Shown piece by piece: positions 33,753 to 45,837 of a stretch of 45,837 nt of DNA. The stretch covers positions 1-45,837 of the IMG/VR virus record IMGVR_UViG_3300024432_000023; one strand, written 5' to 3'. How positions within the stretch are numbered: position 1 is the stretch's first letter; each line of letters starts with the position of its first letter. A program made the translations under genes and the position numbers. The notes below the pieces were generated by a model that saw nothing but the letters and a program-made list of their open reading frames with translations, had not been told where the DNA came from and searched no databases. Origin of the DNA: a virus.

Positions 33753-34241
33753 TTAGTTATCGGCATCGCCGGATGAAATCTCGTCCTTGTAGTCTTGAAT
33801 CGCGTCATTCCGTGGACGCGTTGCTGTTGGTAAGAAGTTCGCCGGAATAGCGGCACGGATGCTATCCGCTGCTCCTACACTTGCTTTCATCGCATCCATT
33901 GCGTCCTGCAACTGTATGATGCGAGTAGTCAGGAAGTTGTCTCGCTGATTGAATACAGCGATGAGCGAACGAGCACTCATGCCGCCACTCCCCTCTCCAT
34001 CGGGAGCTATTTCTGCCTGATTGCGTTGACGAACTGTGTTCGCCTCTGCAGTGGCAGCATCAATGTTCGCCTGATCAGCCAGATATGCTGTATGTGCCGT
34101 GTCGAGCGTAGCCTGATCGACGGTCTCACATTCCAGTTCAAGAGTACCCGGATGCCAGATGTTGAGGAACGGATCAGCACTTGCCATCTCGGCAATCTTG
34201 ACCCAATCTTCCGTCAGACTTGACGTTACTCGGAACCCCAT
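33753..34241 (-). CDS. Fibre-cluster hypothetical protein, 162 residues
   Basis: Helical: a start like a small attachment domain (VTSSLTEDWVKIAEM), then two long helical stretches (TLDTAHTAYLADQANIDAA and FNQRDNFLTTRIIQLQDAM) and an acidic tail. Overlaps the stop of the 1,511-residue fibre (TAATG-type, 1 nt), so it is co-translated with it. Small helical proteins right after a fibre gene often help fibre assembly or attachment; no sequence family is recognised to confirm this. Confidence 0.55.
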   Translation of the reverse strand: MGFRVTSSLTEDWVKIAEMASADPFLNIWHPGTLELECETVDQATLDTAHTAYLADQANIDAATAEANTVRQRNQAEIAPDGEGSGGMSARSLIAVFNQRDNFLTTRIIQLQDAMDAMKASVGAADSIRAAIPANFLPTATRPRNDAIQDYKDEISSGDADN

Positions 34242-37200
34242 TACAGTACCCTCTCTGCGGTAAATGTTATTTCGTTTGCATCGTCGTCGTCACTACCCGA
34301 TATTTCCGTCTTGCTCACCTGCAACGTTATGAAGTCGCTGGCAGCAAGAGTTGCGTAGAACGTGATATCTAAACGATTGGGAACTGCCTCGCCATCTATC
34401 GAGGAGTCATTGAAGAAGCCAGTACTAGCGATTGAACCAGCGATACCCGTTCCACCATCGTTGAGCCGCACTCTGCCATTGAGCAGCATGTTTCGATTGG
34501 ACGTGACAGTCGGATCACCCTTGACTCCATAGTGAATTCTAAAAGTACCAGCCACTCCAGCGATGATGTTGTCACTGTTGGTAGCGAGATCGTGATCGAG
34601 GACAGCGGAGTCAGTCTCGATGTCAGTCACGTCCAACGTGACGTCTTGGAACGCAGTCGTGAGCGCAAGATCAGTCGTGCGTCTGGCCTGAACTGCGTCG
34701 TTGACAAGTTGCTTGTCAACTCCAGTATCCGTTGTGAACACCAAAGTGTTCGGTACATCATCCCGTACCCATACCTGACCAACACCTACCTCATCCCCCG
34801 GCGCAGCAGATTTCTCTAGCATCGCCAGATTAGGTTGATGTAAGAAGAGCCGTTCAAATCCAGTCCCTTCAACATGCCAATCGGTCAATCCTGTTAATGA
34901 TGTGACCATATCGAGAGGGTCACTTACAGGGTCAACAGCCATGAAAAATGATTCAGCCCCGATGTCAGGTCTCAGCCTGAACGCATCGGAGAACATTTCT
35001 GATATCCCATTAGCGATTCGGAATTGCTCTGTACTACTCGTTGTGAATTTTAGTATGGTTGCAGTATCGCTATACATTCCCATGTTAGTTGAGCGAACCG
35101 CAACAGCAGGATCAGCCGCAGTACCGAATCCAGCAAAGATCTGCCCTCCGCTTGTCATCTGAATATCAGTGTCAAACGTATAAGCTCCAGCCCCAATGAA
35201 GTTCAGGTCTGCGGTCAGTGTGCAAGTGATATTGCCATCAGTTCCGTCGTGATCGATAGTTACTGAATCAGTTGCGAGCGTATCAAGAGCGACAAGTTGA
35301 TTGCCTCCAGCAGCTGTGATATCCCCCGCGACTACGACGTTATTATCGAAGAAGTATTGAGTAGCAACTCCGGTAAAGTTCAGTGCCGTCGAACCGACCG
35401 AAGCAATAGTTCCTGCTGCTCCGTTATGGCTGATAGATACGGAGTCAGTTAGCCCAGCGTCGAGGACGGAGAAGACACCCGCAGCTGTGACTTGTACCTG
35501 AGTCTCTTCAATGAATGCCGCTCCGTCAAAGCGGAGCATCGAATTGGTTGTAGTACCTGCGACAGCTCCTCCACCGAAGAGCAGCAAGATGCCGAATTTT
35601 TCACCGTTGGTGAAGTTAGCATTTGAAGCGGAGACCGAACCTGCAAGAGAATACCAACCACCATTGTCCACGTTCGCTGTAATGTCGAACAGCATGAACT
35701 CGGTGGCATCTTCAATATTCTGGATGTAGAGCTGATCGCCATTACCAAGGAGCCCTAAGATGACATCAAAATCAGCGTTGGTTTCACTTACGCTGTTGAT
35801 GAATACTTCGGTGACCGAACCGATGGTAGCGTTATCGTTTCGGAAGAGGCCTTGACCCGGATCAGCCTCAGTAGTGTTGCTGTCAAACTGCCATTGCCCG
35901 GAGACAGTCGCTCCACCTGTAGCGATCTGGTTAGGATTGCCGTTGAACAATGTATCCCAGTTTGTAGCATCACGACCAAGGAACACCCCGACGTGTCCAC
36001 TCTCAATGTCAATGGCCGTATTAACTCCGGCTCCAATGTTATCTCCCAGTGCTGGGAAGAGTTGAAGTGAATTAGCACCATTGTTAATGACTTCGAGCTT
36101 AGTACCGGCAGTGACTGCGAACGCAGTGAGAGCGTCACCAGCATTCGCTACCGTCTGAATCTCGTTGCGAGAGCAACGTAGTAAGAGGCCTCCGGCCTGA
36201 GTTTGCGTGACGCTCGCGGTCAGCCCGACTTCGTTCTCATTCGTTTGTACGATGCGACCAGTAGCCTCTGAATACAAGACGGCTGTTCCACTATCAACAA
36301 TGATTGCAATATTGTTGTTAGCGGACGAACCGATACCAGTGCCGACGTTGTCAGCGATGGGAGCGAGACCCGGTGTCGTCAGGCTGACAGTACCAGCATT
36401 GACAAGCCCCGGACCAGTTGTCGTAACAGACGCACCGAAATCAGACCCAGAAGCTCTCCAAGTATCTACTCCGTTAATAACTATACGAAGCTGACTGAAG
36501 AGTGTATTGAATCCAATCGCAGCACTACCTAATTGTAGAGCAGGGAAAGCTGGTGCTCCGATAGTGGCAGAAGCCGGATGGAGTATGAGTTGATCAGTCG
36601 CAGCATTAACCGCACGAGCAATCTCTATGCTATCTGCAATGATTGAAACCGTAGCAGAACCGTCACCACCGATACCTGAGTTGTTGTCGTTGTTGAAAGC
36701 ATAGATCGGGTTGGTATTTGTAGCAGCTTCATCACTGACCAGATACCAAGTTGGTGCAGAAGCGGATGGTCCGAGAACACCAGTGTCATCCATACGCATG
36801 ACTTCAGTGCCAATGACTGACCACTTCGGTTGCCCGTCGTAGTACATGCCACTGTTGGTTTCGCTCGCGAAGGAATAACTCGGCGCACCAACCGCTCCGT
36901 TAGGAGCCAAGATAGGACCAGATGTATTGATAGAAATTGCTGACGCTGCTTCAGTAACTCGTATACCTTCAACTCCGCCAGCGATGAGCGCCAAGATGTC
37001 GCTGCCATCACCACCAATACCGGTGTCGTCGTCATCGTTTCTCGGAACAAGCGTAGGACTGGTGAGGCTTGCTATTTGATTAAAGAGTTTACCGGCTCCA
37101 ACAGCAGCCCCTGTGAACTGTGCGCTATTAGTTGGGAAAGCTGACGTGGGTACAGTGATAGGTCCACCCGTTGCATAACGAGCAACCCCATTCGTGATGC

Positions 37201-38776
37201 GTACTTCGTCAATCCAGCCATCAACAAAAGCTGCGTTAGCGCCACCAGTCGGATCTAATACACCGAGTTTGAGGGTGGTAGTTGAGTTATTTAGTACCGA
37301 ACCTGTGAAGATGCCACCAGCTTCAAATTCAAGTAAGCCATTCCACCAGATACTAAGTGTGTCGCCTGCCGATCTCTGTGCGGTGAAATAGTGCCATGTA
37401 TTCAGAGCCGGTGCGCCACCAAGACCACCTTGTTCAAAAACGCCCACGCCGCCTTCGGATTCAAATCTTATCCTGTAATCAAGACCATCCTGAATAAGAC
37501 TGACAGCGAATGCTCGATCAGTGCCACCACCAATGACCCACTGAGAGACCATTGTCATTTCGTCGCCAACTGCTGGCAGTGAAGCGAATCTTACAAATCC
37601 CTCTATTGTGAAAAGATTAGATCCGAAAGTGTAGCCAGCAATGTCAGGAAAATGTAGATAGTCATTAAGACCGTCTAGCAGTAACGATGCAGTGCCGAAT
37701 TTGAACTGTGCGGTATCGAGTTCTGCACCACCAACGAATGTAGCAACAGCAGCATTGTTTGATTGCTCAGTGAATGACGTAGCACCGTCAGGACCATCCA
37801 AATTTGTGAGCAGTTCCACACTGGAGAAATCGGGATCAGCACCTGTAATAGGTCCGAACTCAAATTCTTTTGCACCCTCCAGTGCGACAGCGATAGTGTC
37901 ATCTACTTCTTCATAGAAGCCGCTGTCACCGTCACCGAAGGCAAGCGTCGGAGCAGCCGGATTGTCATCTATCAGGCCGGGAGTGAGGATGAACTGGTTC
38001 GCACCTACGACTTCTGCTGCCTGAGCAATTTGAACTCCGCCAGCGATCAGCGCAAGACTATCTGCGCCATTTGCTCCAATTCCTGTGTCTGAATCATTCG
38101 TAAAAGGAATTATGTTTGGCACAGTCAAAGTTGCTGCAAGGTTCTCCAAACGAGGTCGATCACCACCCGACACATCGACGGTCCCAGCGAATATCGAGAT
38201 CCCGGCAGCAAACGTCACTCTGAGAACACCAGCGGTCGCAATCGCAAGATTGTCATCGGCGATTTCGTAGAGACCAGTGTCACCGTCGCCGAAGGCGAGG
38301 CTAGGTGTCGCCGGAGCATCTTGGAACACTCCCGGAGAAACGATAAACTGATTCGCACCGACAACTTCTACTGCCTGAGCAATCTGAACACCACCGGCAG
38401 CGAATCCAAGAACATCAGCCGACGGATTGTAGACACCAGTATCTGGATCTCCGGCAAAACTGTAAGTCGGCGCAGCAACCGATCCGCCACTGAGCAACAA
38501 CGGATCATCGAGACTGACCGTGATCGTACTGTTCGGTCCCGCATCTACAATGGAGATGCCAGCCCCTTCAGTTAGTATACGTTCGTTCGGAAGTTGCGCG
38601 TTCGCCGACACTGTGACGAACGTCGCATCCAATCCAGTGGTAGCTATAAGCTGGTCTAACGAAACTCTTCGGCTGACATCTTGTGCGGCTTCAACTGTCT
38701 GCACCTCGAAGAAAGTTGCAGCTCCATCGAGAGGTAGCGCAGCAGGTTCCAGATCCGAAATTTTTATATTAGGCAT
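34241..38776 (-). CDS. Giant tail fibre with LamG-like domain and beta repeats, 1,511 residues
   Basis: Opens with a short attachment segment (KISDLEPAALPLDG), then many copies of a fibre unit of the kind YSFAGDPDTGVY...LGFAAGGVQ and IPFTNDSDTGIG...LALIAGGVQ across about 90-300 and 560-900. Residues about 320-540 form one concanavalin/LamG-like sandwich (FKFGTASLLLDGLNDYLHF, IEGFVRFASLP, YFTAQRS, GWIDEVRITNG), a sugar-binding type fold. The C-terminal about 130 residues (GTFRIHYGVKGD, FFNDSSIDGEAVPNRLDITF) look like a C1q/TNF-type jelly roll. Shares repeat units with the fibre at 41091-43751. Probably the main receptor-binding fibre. Overlaps the previous gene by 8 nt. Confidence 0.8.
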   Translation of the reverse strand: MPNIKISDLEPAALPLDGAATFFEVQTVEAAQDVSRRVSLDQLIATTGLDATFVTVSANAQLPNERILTEGAGISIVDAGPNSTITVSLDDPLLLSGGSVAAPTYSFAGDPDTGVYNPSADVLGFAAGGVQIAQAVEVVGANQFIVSPGVFQDAPATPSLAFGDGDTGLYEIADDNLAIATAGVLRVTFAAGISIFAGTVDVSGGDRPRLENLAATLTVPNIIPFTNDSDTGIGANGADSLALIAGGVQIAQAAEVVGANQFILTPGLIDDNPAAPTLAFGDGDSGFYEEVDDTIAVALEGAKEFEFGPITGADPDFSSVELLTNLDGPDGATSFTEQSNNAAVATFVGGAELDTAQFKFGTASLLLDGLNDYLHFPDIAGYTFGSNLFTIEGFVRFASLPAVGDEMTMVSQWVIGGGTDRAFAVSLIQDGLDYRIRFESEGGVGVFEQGGLGGAPALNTWHYFTAQRSAGDTLSIWWNGLLEFEAGGIFTGSVLNNSTTTLKLGVLDPTGGANAAFVDGWIDEVRITNGVARYATGGPITVPTSAFPTNSAQFTGAAVGAGKLFNQIASLTSPTLVPRNDDDDTGIGGDGSDILALIAGGVEGIRVTEAASAISINTSGPILAPNGAVGAPSYSFASETNSGMYYDGQPKWSVIGTEVMRMDDTGVLGPSASAPTWYLVSDEAATNTNPIYAFNNDNNSGIGGDGSATVSIIADSIEIARAVNAATDQLILHPASATIGAPAFPALQLGSAAIGFNTLFSQLRIVINGVDTWRASGSDFGASVTTTGPGLVNAGTVSLTTPGLAPIADNVGTGIGSSANNNIAIIVDSGTAVLYSEATGRIVQTNENEVGLTASVTQTQAGGLLLRCSRNEIQTVANAGDALTAFAVTAGTKLEVINNGANSLQLFPALGDNIGAGVNTAIDIESGHVGVFLGRDATNWDTLFNGNPNQIATGGATVSGQWQFDSNTTEADPGQGLFRNDNATIGSVTEVFINSVSETNADFDVILGLLGNGDQLYIQNIEDATEFMLFDITANVDNGGWYSLAGSVSASNANFTNGEKFGILLLFGGGAVAGTTTNSMLRFDGAAFIEETQVQVTAAGVFSVLDAGLTDSVSISHNGAAGTIASVGSTALNFTGVATQYFFDNNVVVAGDITAAGGNQLVALDTLATDSVTIDHDGTDGNITCTLTADLNFIGAGAYTFDTDIQMTSGGQIFAGFGTAADPAVAVRSTNMGMYSDTATILKFTTSSTEQFRIANGISEMFSDAFRLRPDIGAESFFMAVDPVSDPLDMVTSLTGLTDWHVEGTGFERLFLHQPNLAMLEKSAAPGDEVGVGQVWVRDDVPNTLVFTTDTGVDKQLVNDAVQARRTTDLALTTAFQDVTLDVTDIETDSAVLDHDLATNSDNIIAGVAGTFRIHYGVKGDPTVTSNRNMLLNGRVRLNDGGTGIAGSIASTGFFNDSSIDGEAVPNRLDITFYATLAASDFITLQVSKTEISGSDDDDANEITFTAERVL
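37925..38404. repeat. Two copies of a 126-nt fibre unit
   Basis: Positions 37925-38050 and 38279-38404 are closely similar in DNA and protein. On the minus strand each encodes a GGVQIAQA(V/A)EVVGANQF unit followed by a PS/PTLAFGDGD(T/S)G stretch. They mark a recent duplication inside the large fibre gene. Confidence 0.65.
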
Positions 38777-39136: not shown

Positions 39137-40210
39137 TTATCTCGTATACGGTGATATGTTGGGACGCAGGTACACTTCAGACTCATCAGTCTCACCTGTC
39201 CATGCGTCACTCAAATACTTTTCTGCGTCGAGATCCAATCGAGGAACGATCACCTCGTCCACCTCTTTAAGCTCCCTGCCCAGTTCTGCTGCCAAGTTAC
39301 ATACAATGGCAAGGTACCAGCGGTCAGGGACCTCCAGTTCATCTGTCATCACACCGACATCTTGCAACTGTCGCTGCACGAAGCCAGTGATCTGATCGAA
39401 CGTAAACTCAGCACCGGGGTTCGGCCAAAGCTCTATCTCTGGCTGCGTGCGTCGTTTGTCATACCAGAATTGCGTCGGTCGCCCAGTGCTGAACTTGTCC
39501 GGCAAGTTCGCATAATCATTTCGATTGAGCTTGTACATCGGAATCTCATTGGGCTTGTTCTGATACACCAGCTCAATCACATCGAGCACTGTGGTACCTG
39601 TCGCACGCAGTCGCCAATACTGGAACTCTGTCACACGTGACACTGCCGGTACGTCTTCCCAGAGCCACTCATTTGCAACGACTGCTTGACCTGTCTTGGT
39701 GATGTATGTCGTGGCTGTAACGAAGTTGTCGTTCGAGGCCTCGATCACGTAATCCCACGTCCCGGAGACGTTGGGCATGATGCCAAAGGTGAAGATCGCA
39801 GTGGCACCATCGGTACCCAGATCCATGCTGATGTTGCCTGCAGCAGCCACCTGTGTACATGCCGTAGTCAGATCACTATCGAATGCATTGCCCGCAATCC
39901 CCTCCGTAGCAGTTGCATCACCGGTAATCCTATTCCCGTTGCGCAGATTGATGGTGTATGTATCTACCGTACCAAGCGGACACGGAACAGTTGCCTGACG
40001 CCAGTAAATTGGCAGAATGATCGGGTCCACATTCCAGAGCTTGATACCTTTGTTGACCAAGGTCTGAGTGAACAACCACAGCAAATCGAGAGCAATTGTA
40101 ATGTGCTCACCTGCGATCTCTTGCTCGACCATCTTGCACCGACGAAACGCATGATCAATGATCTGCTGATTCGAAAAGATGGTCGAACCGACTGTGTCTG
40201 TAGTTGGCAT
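39137..40210 (-). CDS. gp4-like head-to-tail connector with inserted F5/8C-like beta domain, 357 residues
   Basis: The N-terminal helices (IIDHAFRRCKMVEQEIAGEH, then LWLFTQTLVNKGIKLW) and the C-terminal half (YKLNRNDYANLPDKFSTGRP, FWYDKRRTQPEIELWPNP, then AIVCNLAAELGRELKEV) match gp4-type connectors. Between them (about 95-215) is a separate beta domain: TATEGIAGNAFDSDLTTACT, ISMDLG, DYVIEASNDNF, YWRLRATGTT. This has the strand order and motifs of a discoidin/F5/8-type C galactose-binding fold, making the protein far longer than P22 gp4 (about 166). ATG at 40210 has AGAGGAGG ahead and overlaps the stop of the frame-shifted gene upstream (TAATG). Confidence 0.72.
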   Translation of the reverse strand: MPTTDTVGSTIFSNQQIIDHAFRRCKMVEQEIAGEHITIALDLLWLFTQTLVNKGIKLWNVDPIILPIYWRQATVPCPLGTVDTYTINLRNGNRITGDATATEGIAGNAFDSDLTTACTQVAAAGNISMDLGTDGATAIFTFGIMPNVSGTWDYVIEASNDNFVTATTYITKTGQAVVANEWLWEDVPAVSRVTEFQYWRLRATGTTVLDVIELVYQNKPNEIPMYKLNRNDYANLPDKFSTGRPTQFWYDKRRTQPEIELWPNPGAEFTFDQITGFVQRQLQDVGVMTDELEVPDRWYLAIVCNLAAELGRELKEVDEVIVPRLDLDAEKYLSDAWTGETDESEVYLRPNISPYTR

Positions 40211-40356
40211 TAACCTCGACCTCCTCTTACTGCGCTACGACCACCACGCGCACCTTGCCCGTGTCCTCGCGGACGCGGATGTCGAACGTGGTCTTTCATT
40301 ACGTCTTTGGCGACTCGACGTGCGACCTTTTCTACTGAGCCGCCTCGGCTTTTTTT
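40210..40356 (-). other. Candidate -1 frameshift site and 46-residue C-terminal extension
   Basis: Codons ATA AAA AAA GCC cover a seven-A run (40356-40350) in the X XXY YYZ form. A -1 slip there skips the TAG at 40334 and reads SRGGSVEKVARRVAKD, then a basic GRG-rich tail, to TAA at 40212-40210, which overlaps the next ATG (TAATG). The extension keeps the RGG-x-V style of the main frame. It has no start codon of its own except one ATG 28 codons before the end. An AGCCG/CGGCT stem begins at the last A of the run, and AGGGTGG lies about 6 nt upstream. A homopolymer sequencing error would give the same picture. Confidence 0.6.
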
Positions 40357-41078
40357 ATTACGCCACCCTGTGCGTACTCCACAAGACCACCACGAGCTTT
40401 CTTCGTCCCCTTCAGCGCCCCTTTGCCTCCGCGTGCCGTTATCTCCTCCATCTTCTTCCGTTCAAAGTCAGATATCTGACCTTTCATGGCTCTCAATTTT
40501 GCTTCGACAGCTTTCGAATCCAGTCCCTTACGCCTGACGAGACCAAGCAATCCCTTTAGTCCCGTCGTCTTTGGCCCGTATGTGGTTCCGAAGAACTCCG
40601 CTACTTTCTCCTTCAGCTCTTCCATAGACACATCCTTGTCTCCGTTGCTTTTACCTTTTTTAACGGTGCCGCCTTTCCTGTAACGCGTTTGGCGCACACC
40701 ACCACCTTCCTTGTATCCGGCCTTCAGACGTTTGTTGCCACCAGCCTCAACTTCGGCCTCATTGCGACCTTCCTGCGCAGGCTGCACACCGTGGTCCATG
40801 GTGTCCTGCTTACCGCTCTTCATCACAAAGTCGGCAGACGTTTTCTTGACCGTACCACCATAGGCATAGCCCATCTTTGCGCCTTCATTCTTCAGCTGGT
40901 CGTGCACAGTGCCGCCTTTCGCTTTGACGTTCTTCGGCATCTTCTGGTGCGCTTTCGACTTCACGTGTCCGCCACGCATGTAACCGCGCACTTTGTGCAC
41001 ACCCGCAGAACCGGTGAAGCCCTGCTCTGCGGGGAACGAGAAGTCCTTCACATATGTCAGTCCTACGTTCTTACCCAT
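40332..41078 (-). CDS. Basic glycine-rich late protein, 248 residues in frame (289 with -1 shift)
   Basis: Starts MGKNVGLTYVKDFSFPAEQG at ATG 41078 with AACAGGAGAAAGAA ahead. Lysine- and glycine-rich throughout, with spaced GG-x-V units (RGGHVKSK, KGGTVHDQ, YGGTVKKT, KGGTVKKG, QGGVIKKA) and one helix (MEELKEKVAEFFG, SKAVEAKLRAMKGQ). It reads as a DNA- or head-binding virion protein; no family known to me has a function. The zero-frame product stops at 40332 after AEAAQ. A slippery A7 run just before this stop opens the -1 frame for 46 more residues (next entry), and the GG-x-V style continues there. Confidence 0.7.
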   Translation of the reverse strand: MGKNVGLTYVKDFSFPAEQGFTGSAGVHKVRGYMRGGHVKSKAHQKMPKNVKAKGGTVHDQLKNEGAKMGYAYGGTVKKTSADFVMKSGKQDTMDHGVQPAQEGRNEAEVEAGGNKRLKAGYKEGGGVRQTRYRKGGTVKKGKSNGDKDVSMEELKEKVAEFFGTTYGPKTTGLKGLLGLVRRKGLDSKAVEAKLRAMKGQISDFERKKMEEITARGGKGALKGTKKARGGLVEYAQGGVIKKAEAAQ

Positions 41079-41090
41079 TTCTTTCTCCTG

Positions 41091-43751
41091 TTAAGCTGTA
41101 ATCAATCCCAGTGCAACTAAGGCCGCGTGAACTGCGCCGATTGTTACTGCGACCCCAGTCTGTAATGCGATTGGCGTAGTTGCATAGAAGCCGACTTCAC
41201 CCCCGTTGAGGCTGAGTGCTTCGGTTGTCGTAAGGGTGATGTTTCCATCAACACCGGTACCACCGGCTATGCCGCCAGAAATATCTATTGAGCCACCATC
41301 ACCAGTGCCAGTACCGACACCACCGTCAAGACTGACTAGACCGCCCCCGCCATCTGTTGCTAGTGAGGCACCGCCAGAAATTACAGCACCTCCACCAAGG
41401 CCACTTCCGGCTCCAGAGCCGCCTGCGCCGCCTCTCATGAAGGCGCTACCACCGCTACCACCACCGGCTGAGCCTGCTCCAGCGATCAGAGAGGTTATGC
41501 CACCATCTTGATTTGTGCCAAACCCGGCACCACCGAGAACGCGTGCTGCACCGCCAGCACCGCCGACAGTTGCTACGCCGCCCTCAACTTCTGCGTCACC
41601 CGGCTGAGTGTCACTCTCGCCACCGTAGAGGTGAGCATTACCACCTGAGCCTGCTCCACCCCCTTGACCTCCGCCAAAGAGGTTAAGATCGCCACCGATT
41701 GCCGCCGCAGTAGTGCCCGCAGCATATCCGCCCCAGATATCGACGTTACCTGCCTGTCCTTCGGCACTATGTCCGGCACCGTATATTGCTACGAGTCCGG
41801 CAGTTGAAGTTCCTGCTACTGATCCACCGTCAGCACCGATACCAGTTAGAGTATTAACGAACCAGTTGCCACTCGCAGCTGTACCTCCGCCCAAACCAAC
41901 TTGCATGATGAGATCGCCACCAACACCACCCGCACCACCGTCGCCAGTCGTGATGTTAATATCACCACCATCGGCTACGCCTGATCCTGCTCCGGAGAGT
42001 AAACTAAGTGCGCCACCTAGGCCTCCTGCGCCACCTGCGTTTGATGCACCGGCTGTAATTGATACTGCGCCGCCTGCATCAGCAGCAACAGTACCTGAAG
42101 CACCTGCGTCCAAGTCCAGATCGCCACCGTCACCAGATGCGACTGTGCCTGCCAGCATGAAAGCATTGCTAGCAGCGGAAAGTCTAAGATGCTCAACACC
42201 ACCTGCGATAAGTGAAAACTCATTTGCTGCGTTCCAACCAATACCCGTGTCAGGATCACTGCGTCCCGGTATTACTGTTGGGTTGGTCGCCGATGGAACT
42301 TCATTTACGAAAGCAGGACCATTCGAGAGTGTGCCTCCAAAAGAGACTCCTGACCAAAACCACGCTTGAGCACCTGCAATGGATAATGTCAACGAATCAT
42401 CTACAGTTTCATAGAATCCTGTATCTCCATCACCCCATGCCAAGGAGGGTAAAGCTGCGGTTCCGATTACGCCCGCAGGTCCAATAATGACCTGATCTAC
42501 GGTAGCTTCCGTCAGGCGTAAAAGTTCAAGACCGCCAGCAATTAAGGAAAGTTGGTCTGCTGCATTAGAGCCTAGACCTGTATCTTGATCTCCTTTATTC
42601 GGATGAATATTGGCAGCGGTAGCAGTAGAACTTACGTTACTGAGAGCAGGACCAGTGGTTGCTTGTCCAAAGATGTCAGCACCATCGAAATTCCACGTTA
42701 ATGATCCAGCTGAAGATAAACCAACACGACCAGCACCCACACGATAGAACCCGGTAGTTATATCTGAGAGGAATCCGAAAGCCGTGAGAGTTGGTGATCC
42801 ATTCGGTGCGCGAATGCTGTCACCAGTAATCTTGACTGCATTCGTACCATTGATTGCAAAATCAATTTGTCCGAGACCCGCTTTCCAGATACCAGTATCA
42901 GGGTCACCTGAGAACGAATACGATGGCGCACCTACTGTTCCATCAGGAGCTAACGACGGGAATGAAGCACCAGCACCCGGTTCAGAGACGATCATCCAGT
43001 TGGTCGAATCGAGGGTGTAGAAGGTCATGCTCTTGTTTACAGCCAGCGTTACTGACGCATTGACAGCATTCCCTAAAATAGTCTCACCCACTGGTGGGAA
43101 AATCTGCAACTGATTCGCCCCAGAGTTCATGATAGTGATATGGAACCCTGCGGCAGAAGTGTTGTGCAGTGTAATGACGTCGTCTGGGTTCGCTACGGTA
43201 GTAACTTCAGTAAAGCGTCCACCGTTAATCAATCCATTACCTTGCGTCTGCGTTGTGCTAGCAGTGACGCCAGTTGTTATCCGAACAAACTGTCTGATTG
43301 AGTTGTCGGCAGCTGTACTATGCTGCCAAGTTTGAGCGAAGTCTCCATCACAAGTAACACTTACATTTCGTATCGCGCCAGATCCGATCCCAGTACTGAG
43401 ATCGTCCATGCGAGGAATCAAAGTTGGAACCGTAGAAGACGAAGCTACGTTTCGGATACCACCGGCATTCGACAAACCACCACGAATTGCTCCACCCGCA
43501 GCAAGATTACGAAGAGCTGCTGTATCAAACGTGAGCCCAACATTGCCTGTAATTGCAGTACCGTCTGGATTCCAAAACGCAACCTGCAAATTAGCCGGAG
43601 TTCCGGTAATGCTGACGCCACCGAACAAGGTCTTGAGCTGCGCCGCTGTTAATTTTTTATCTCGCGTGTCCCCACTCTGACGCACACCGAACAAGTCTGT
43701 GAGCGCAGGAACAGTTACAGCAACAAGACCGGGAATAGTTGAGTTAGCCAT
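41091..43751 (-). CDS. Fibre/adhesin with glycine-rich C-terminal region, 886 residues
   Basis: Residues 1-280 resemble fibre attachment and beta units, with a motif (NPDGTAITGNVGLTFD) and a LIPRMDDLSTGIGSG unit. About 280-560 hold the same repeat units as the 1,511-residue fibre (YSFSGDPDTGIW, GLGSNAADQLSLIAGGLE, SDPDTGIGWNAANEFSLIAGG). From about 565 to 845 the sequence is dominated by GG, GAGG and GGxGG spacing (GGAGGAGGLGGALSLLSG style), alternating with DG and short aliphatic steps, like the polyglycine-II receptor-binding domains of T-even gp38 adhesins. The end is a small beta piece. ATG at 43751; it follows a small gene at 43753-43932. Confidence 0.7.
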   Translation of the reverse strand: MANSTIPGLVAVTVPALTDLFGVRQSGDTRDKKLTAAQLKTLFGGVSITGTPANLQVAFWNPDGTAITGNVGLTFDTAALRNLAAGGAIRGGLSNAGGIRNVASSSTVPTLIPRMDDLSTGIGSGAIRNVSVTCDGDFAQTWQHSTAADNSIRQFVRITTGVTASTTQTQGNGLINGGRFTEVTTVANPDDVITLHNTSAAGFHITIMNSGANQLQIFPPVGETILGNAVNASVTLAVNKSMTFYTLDSTNWMIVSEPGAGASFPSLAPDGTVGAPSYSFSGDPDTGIWKAGLGQIDFAINGTNAVKITGDSIRAPNGSPTLTAFGFLSDITTGFYRVGAGRVGLSSAGSLTWNFDGADIFGQATTGPALSNVSSTATAANIHPNKGDQDTGLGSNAADQLSLIAGGLELLRLTEATVDQVIIGPAGVIGTAALPSLAWGDGDTGFYETVDDSLTLSIAGAQAWFWSGVSFGGTLSNGPAFVNEVPSATNPTVIPGRSDPDTGIGWNAANEFSLIAGGVEHLRLSAASNAFMLAGTVASGDGGDLDLDAGASGTVAADAGGAVSITAGASNAGGAGGLGGALSLLSGAGSGVADGGDINITTGDGGAGGVGGDLIMQVGLGGGTAASGNWFVNTLTGIGADGGSVAGTSTAGLVAIYGAGHSAEGQAGNVDIWGGYAAGTTAAAIGGDLNLFGGGQGGGAGSGGNAHLYGGESDTQPGDAEVEGGVATVGGAGGAARVLGGAGFGTNQDGGITSLIAGAGSAGGGSGGSAFMRGGAGGSGAGSGLGGGAVISGGASLATDGGGGLVSLDGGVGTGTGDGGSIDISGGIAGGTGVDGNITLTTTEALSLNGGEVGFYATTPIALQTGVAVTIGAVHAALVALGLITA

Positions 43752-45385: not shown

Positions 45386-45837
45386 TCAGAGTCCCGGAGT
45401 ACCGAACACAGCTCGCGGATCAGTCCAGTCCGGAATGTAACGCTCGGTGGACTTGTACCGCATCGAGTCGGTCTCGAAGTCGCCTTCCATCGACTTTTCA
45501 AGCCCGCGGCGCATCATCATCTGCAGACCACGTGGCGCATCCGTCTGGACCCACCATGCAGTTGTCGAAGTAATACGCGACAGGTTTGCCTGACCCTGAG
45601 ACAGAAGCCCCATGGACAGGATCGGGTTGATGTCATTGTTAGCCGTTCCTGCACGCAGGACAGACTTCAAGAGGACTTCAGCTTGGAAGACCTGACTCGG
45701 ACCCGTAACGATCTTGAGCGGCGTCAACCGGATGCGCTTGCCGTTATTGTCCACAGCATTGCGAATCTGAATGAGCTGTTGCTCAAGTGACGTTTGCGAC
45801 AGAGCCGCAGCAGTCGTTAACAGGTTCGAGAACACAC
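45386..45837 (-). CDS. Major capsid protein, C-terminal part, cut by window edge
   Basis: The frame is open to the right edge, so the N-terminus is missing; an internal GTG near 45835 is unlikely to be the true start. The C-terminus (SMRYKSTERYIPDWTDPRAV, then FGTPG) matches the end of HK97-type phage coat proteins, which finish with a similar RYK..ERY..GWTDPR..YG.PG pattern. The middle (LKIVTGPSQVFQAEVLLKS, INPILSMGLLS) fits the A-domain core. It is followed by a terminator, as common for abundant coat proteins. Confidence 0.8.
   Translation of the reverse strand, partial: VFSNLLTTAAALSQTSLEQQLIQIRNAVDNNGKRIRLTPLKIVTGPSQVFQAEVLLKSVLRAGTANNDINPILSMGLLSQGQANLSRITSTTAWWVQTDAPRGLQMMMRRGLEKSMEGDFETDSMRYKSTERYIPDWTDPRAVFGTPGL

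Follow-up and report, generated by a model that had tools for sequence, protein, structure and literature searches.

A probable programmed −1 ribosomal frameshift adds a conserved basic tail to a Lys/Gly-rich phage protein

Organisation of the locus

The window, that is, the whole stretch of DNA analysed here, is the 45,837-nt IMG/VR virus record IMGVR_UViG_3300024432_000023, a metagenomic contig. The gene under study runs from 41078 to 40210 on its minus strand, and the following features are found in it or around it:

45386..45835, upstream: capsid-like ORF matching phrog_4523 (major head and protease)
41091..43751, minus strand: fibre-like gene, neighbour of the frameshift gene
40332..41078, minus strand: 0-frame ORF, read by standard decoding as a 248-aa Lys/Gly-rich basic protein with KGG/RGG repeats; homologues in 27 loci
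40363..40369, minus strand: Shine-Dalgarno (SD)-like AGGGTGG (contains GGTGG), 6 nt 5′ of the heptamer, possible 5′ stimulator
40350..40356, minus strand: slippery heptamer A_AAA_AAA
40338..40350, minus strand: 5-bp stem AGCCG/CGGCT, overlapping the heptamer and the ribosome footprint
40332..40334, minus strand: 0-frame stop TAG, 15 nt past the heptamer
40309..40344, minus strand: 8-bp stem GGCGGCTC (40344..40337) / GAGTCGCC (40316..40309), candidate 3′ stimulator, 5 nt past the heptamer
40213..40350, minus strand: −1 frame tail of 46 codons (SRGGSVEKVARR...RGGRG), with a homologous domain in frame in distant relatives
40220..40226, minus strand: GAGGAGG, the adaptor gene's own Shine-Dalgarno sequence, within the tail reading frame
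40210..40212, minus strand: −1 frame stop TAA, overlapping the adaptor ATG by one base (TAATG); TAATG, TGATG or TAGATG in 22/22 relatives
39137..40210, minus strand: downstream gene, 357 aa, homologue of phage 'tail adaptor' proteins

The 0-frame ORF begins at ATG 41078, ends at TAG 40334..40332 and encodes a product with a pI of 10.1 that contains 42 Gly and 39 Lys. Its last lysine codons make the A7 run (40356..40350), which is read in phase as ATA AAA AAA GCC, and five codons (GCC GAG GCG GCT CAG) separate the heptamer from the TAG. In the −1 frame, reading from the last A of the run yields SRGGSVEKVARRVAKDVMKDHVRHPRPRGHGQGARGGRSAVRGGRG (46 aa), a tail more basic than the 248-aa product (pI 12.0, +10 in 46 residues), whose TAA (40212..40210) and the adaptor ATG (40210) have one A in common. 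Without the shift, a 121-nt gap would stand before the adaptor gene. One-base stop/start overlaps are likewise present at the window genes 30789, 31871, 33004 and 34241. Rereading the sequence thus recovered what an initial annotation of this DNA had described: an in-phase A7 run five codons ahead of the stop, an AGGGTGG about 6 nt 5′ of it (40369..40363), a 46-residue extension ending in TAATG in place of a 121-nt gap, and a similar junction in neighbouring genes.

The 357-aa protein matches the 'tail adaptor' of MW202545 (35% over the full length, E 2e-57) and a hypothetical protein of Caulobacter phage RW (37%, E 6e-65), together with a weak match to phrog_12985. As this next gene matches a 'tail adaptor' and a capsid-like ORF lies upstream, the frameshift gene is placed in a structural module. 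The large fibre-like proteins of the minus strand (34241..38776 and 41091..43751) have common repeats of the 'DTGIG...LSLIAGG' type, and the longer of them (34241..38776) contains a stretch that looks LamG-like by eye. For the adaptor, a single-sequence AlphaFold model was useless (pLDDT 32), and pLDDT reached 65 with 27 homologues in an alignment that left out two phage-record proteins. A fold search with the adaptor model gave matches mainly to an inserted, beta-rich domain that is apparently present at roughly residues 85-220; there the model resembles carbohydrate-binding domains of the CBM32/CBM62/F5-8 type C (discoidin) kind (E about 1e-7). Such a carbohydrate-binding-like insertion would be unusual for a short-tail adaptor, and the matches of some relatives span only residues from about 206.

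Neither Pfam nor PHROGs has a family for the protein of the frameshift gene, PHROGs has none for its in-frame homologues (see below), and among 50,697 isolate phage records there was no match to the main protein, to its tail or to either of two in-frame homologues. To judge by its composition, the 248-aa protein is likely to be disordered, and nucleic acid or acidic surfaces are possible binding partners.

Slip site and tail among relatives

Relatives in IMG/VR were collected by searching with the main protein (27 loci), the tail (32 loci), the adaptor encoded by the next gene, a query that is neutral as to the presence of the tail (47 loci), and an adaptor profile (79 loci, 39 of them new). 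Once identical regions were removed, a script was run on the 22 distinct tail regions that remained, and one more (L115) was added by hand. In these 23 distinct tail-bearing sequences, which come from ~30 metagenomes, the tail always occupies the −1 frame with respect to the Lys/Gly-rich ORF, and no single-frame fusion was found among these close relatives.

Each 0/−1 overlap, just 3-9 codons wide in several relatives, contains one strong X_XXY_YYZ heptamer at the homologous site (22/22, and L115 also); L068 and L095 each have an extra, weaker motif. The heptamer is A_AAA_AAA in 18 of the 22, and the others are A_AAA_AAG (L005), G_GGA_AAA (L042/L077) and G_GGA_AAG (L067, L068). Outside the slip site, none of the 4609 other in-phase positions of the 22 ORFs holds a strong heptamer. 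When synonymous codons were permuted within each ORF, 2.7 of the 22 slip sites were expected by chance on average (maximum of 8 in 300 trials), against 22 observed, a number that does not amount to 22 independent events because the sampled relatives are related. The same permutation expects 11.0 strong heptamers over all 22 ORFs, and 22 are observed, every one at the slip site. It also places about 8 elsewhere in these lysine-rich 0-frame ORFs, where they are missing. This distribution suggests that strong heptamers are retained at one place and actively avoided elsewhere. The alignment of homologues that the initial annotation had proposed as a check, in which both frames and a slippery heptamer are kept and single-frame fusions are absent from close relatives, supports its core claim of a programmed −1 shift at A7 adding a 46-aa tail.

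The same annotation also named slippage during transcription as a route to the same product, in which RNA polymerase would slip on the A7 run and add one A in some transcripts, the resulting A8 messages encoding the same fused protein. The A7 run is indeed present in the window and in most relatives, and many IS elements are known to use transcriptional slippage instead of ribosomal frameshifting (PMC5009743). However, the shift is retained with A6G (L005), G3A4 (L042) and G3A3G (L067, L068), which are not long homopolymers and fit tandem −1 re-pairing, and with respect to the 0 frame the heptamer invariably has the X_XXY_YYZ phase. L042, for instance, has GTAGTGGGAAAAGCC where the aligned relatives have GTAGTAAAAAAAGCC, so that all three X bases are changed (G_GGA_AAA vs A_AAA_AAA) and the X_XXY_YYZ pattern is kept. 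Read from the sequence, this triple change is the one expected from two tRNAs re-pairing and not from homopolymer slippage. Slippage of the polymerase is therefore the weaker alternative, and we consider it unlikely.

The position of the shift also varies. In type A, to which the window belongs, the shift follows GGxxKK and the tail starts with SRGGSVEK; in type B it follows RGGSVKK, immediately before the TAG, and the tail starts with IARR or IATR; in type C it comes after GKK or AKK, ahead of the TAG, and the tail has two extra codons and then MARGGSVEK. The shift point of type B lies ~24 nt downstream of that of type A in fused-protein coordinates. As the fused products align across these differing joints, conservation applies to the fused protein and not to a single junction in the DNA. 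The frameshift region of L042 is of type A (compared with L035, L113 and others), yet the L042 adaptor groups with those of type-B phages, which suggests recombination between the two adjacent genes; on the adaptor tree, the label sets require 14 changes.

Past the 0-frame stop, the −1 frame of the tail has dN/dS values of 0.13 (13 sequences) and 0.18 (9 sequences), and both other frames exceed 1.4; although the pairs compared are not independent of one another, the frames differ strongly. By these ratios, purifying selection acts on the tail in the −1 frame only. This bears on the possibility, already named as a risk in the initial annotation, of an assembly or sequencing error, or of a recent indel that inactivated the gene and left a pseudogene tail, for which a metagenomic contig with an A7 homopolymer would be a plausible setting. 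However, the architecture is common to the 23 distinct sequences, some of which have no long homopolymer, the selection just described acts on the tail, and in 22/22 relatives the 0-frame stop is a TAG. The tail region of 3300028835_000381 (L002) is identical to that of the window, weak evidence alone, as this may be nearly the same virus. For the family, such an error or pseudogene is already refuted, and we regard it as hardly conceivable.

In more distant phages, the N-terminus that they have in common with the window's protein (YVKDFEFPSxxGFxGSA) and the C-terminal domain are encoded in a single frame. The tail profile matches these in-frame homologues with E values of 3e-8 (L121, whose region is identical in L122), 3e-5 (L126), 0.004 (L141) and 0.027 (L139), and L136 aligns too. 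At the joint, GGVIKK/SRGG of the window stands opposite GGPVAAKKGG of L122, and GGPVAAKKGG...KHVRSPAPKGHG of the in-frame homologues matches GGVIKK/SRGG...DHVRHPRPRGHG of the window. Another distant relative (L132:2300-2500) has a tail-like −1 ORF behind TCA AAA TAG, with only an A_AAA tetramer before the stop, and this is possibly a weaker frameshift site. The tail is absent in L049, L050, L052, L053, L062-L066 and L069 and, since several relatives do without it, it is dispensable in some lineages.

A further possibility is that the tail is a separate small gene with its own start, translated by reinitiation after the TAG or from an internal ATG, and in L005 and L010 an ATG does occur soon after the TAG in the tail frame (TAGGAATGGCGCGAGG). 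Types A and B, however, have no start codon before the conserved RGGSVEKVARR/IARR, their first ATG lying in the middle of the domain; the sequences that do have such an ATG also carry the heptamer; and the in-frame homologues place the domain in the upstream protein. We thus consider a separate gene very improbable. The heptamers of the 23 sequences, the selection in the −1 frame, the moving slip site and the distant relatives with an in-frame tail, taken together, make a sequencing error or a pseudogene very unlikely and favour ribosomal frameshifting over slippage of RNA polymerase.

Candidate stimulators and coupling to the adaptor gene

With spacing criteria taken from PMC4066793, an SD-like sequence was found 6-17 nt upstream of the heptamer in 20 of 22 relatives, compared with 28% of other in-frame positions and with 37 of 75 (49%) other KK codon pairs, and Gly-Gly codons explain this signal in part. 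L067 and L068 are without an SD-like sequence, yet they show strong downstream folding (z about −2.7 and −3.1) and, with L010 and L019, the strongest of the set. Across the 22 sequences, downstream folding is stronger on average than in synonymous shuffles (mean z −1.46), and in type B a hairpin is intact in most sequences. The downstream region of the window itself folds no better than its shuffles (dinucleotide z −0.53, synonymous z −0.97).

All 8 pairs of the 8-bp stem are intact in 9/9 type-A sequences, with no double changes, and the stem is absent from the minimum free energy fold of the window strand; its role as a 3′ stimulator is suggestive. The stem that the initial annotation had drawn from the last A of the run does exist, as the 5-bp AGCCG/CGGCT pairing, but it is unlikely to be a stimulator because it starts inside the ribosome footprint, and the 8-bp stem is the better candidate. 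RNA structure as a proven stimulator was rejected, covariation being lacking. These comparisons suggest possible stimulators of the window's shift.

It had also been proposed that the shift restores operon coupling. The positional part of this proposal stands, as the tail ends in TAATG. Coupling by the shift is possible but unneeded, however, because a GAGGAGG of the adaptor gene's own stands 9 nt ahead of the adaptor ATG, and in the tail-less L050, L052, L062 and L064 the main frame itself stops near that ATG.

Proposed mechanism and comparison with known systems

Sequence comparison shows that the −1 frame is coding and under selection, that a slippery heptamer is obligatory and how the tail joins the adaptor gene, and the gene 41078..40210 is very probably expressed via a programmed −1 ribosomal frameshift. 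We infer both the ratio of the two forms and the slipping agent, namely ribosomes rather than RNA polymerase. Most ribosomes would presumably terminate at TAG 40334, producing the 248-aa Lys/Gly-rich protein, while a fraction of them, those whose P and A sites both contain tRNA-Lys on A_AAA_AAA, would slip back one base. Both tRNA-Lys would then re-pair and reading would resume at AGC (40350..40348), appending 46 conserved and very basic residues to give a protein of 289 aa. In this way, a late protein encoded directly before the tail adaptor would be made in two forms. As the full-length protein of the family, encoded in a single frame in distant relatives, has the C-terminal domain, the shift would set the ratio of domain-bearing to domain-free copies. 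The protein may take part in virion assembly, probably by acting as a disordered basic linker, with a C-terminal domain that would bind a neck partner or DNA.

The tail assembly chaperone genes G/GT of phage lambda are similar in that a −1 shift near the 3′ end of a gene of the late structural module yields a minor, C-terminally extended product. The lambda slip site is itself G_GGA_AAG, the heptamer of two relatives found here (L067, L068). By contrast, the window gene is not located between a major tail protein and a tape measure; it neighbours a fibre-like gene and precedes a podovirus-type tail adaptor, its main product is Lys/Gly-rich and probably disordered, and no sequence relation to G/GT was seen. 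Additionally, lambda gpG and gpGT are not in virions (PMC5009743).

Gene 10 of T7/T3 (10A/10B) and the capsid and tail genes of Lactobacillus phage A2 and Listeria phages also place a C-terminal extension on a fraction of a late virion protein, and phages related to those with capsid or tail frameshifts may encode the extension in frame (PMC5009743). Those genes encode major capsid or tail proteins, in which the extension is often Ig-like, whereas the window has a short basic His/Pro/Gly extension on a minor repeat protein; its capsid-like ORF is a different one (45386..45835), and the frameshift gene has no Pfam or PHROG match.

The site fits the X_XXY_YYZ class, with an in-phase heptamer in an ORF overlap and with both heptamer and protein extension conserved. 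As in bacterial dnaX and the IS3 family, there is an A_AAA_AAR heptamer, an SD-like element upstream at similar spacing and a candidate 3′ stem 4-10 nt downstream (criteria of PMC4066793), although the genes are others and the stimulators of the window are candidates only. The motifs with the highest efficiency in E. coli are C_CCA_AAG, G_GGA_AAG, which L067 and L068 use, and A_AAA_AAG (PMC4066793).

In mode of action, the closest functional analogy is found in CsoS2A/CsoS2B of alpha-carboxysomes, a repetitive disordered scaffold in which a basic C-terminal domain with a conserved peptide is present only after ribosomal frameshifting (PMC11365436). In contrast to the window gene, CsoS2 belongs to a cellular organelle and not to a phage, and its long form is about half of the product; no homology is claimed, the window protein having no Pfam match and a phage context.

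A search by eye for a similar overlap upstream in Caulobacter phage RW, Roseobacter phage CRP-901, Pelagibacter phage HTVC027P and MW202545 revealed none, and no prior report of frameshifting in this gene was found in the open-access literature. Thus, the mechanism is of a known kind, and the gene, its product and the spread of slip-site variants are new. The family joins the small set of phage frameshift genes, and automatic annotation would omit its tail and leave a false gap. With four heptamers, at least two slip positions in one protein, and both in-frame and tail-less relatives, it offers an unusually clean natural experiment, and this set of relatives permits a direct test of the two-form ratio that a phage needs and of how slip sites move in evolution. 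It is conceivable, as a tentative proposal, that this clade of uncultured phages uses a disordered Lys/Gly-rich assembly protein, encoded beside the head-tail adaptor, for which frameshifting fixes the ratio of copies that carry a conserved basic C-terminal anchor to those that lack it. If true, phages would have their own counterpart of the CsoS2A/B principle, with many fillers and few anchors, counted by the ribosome.
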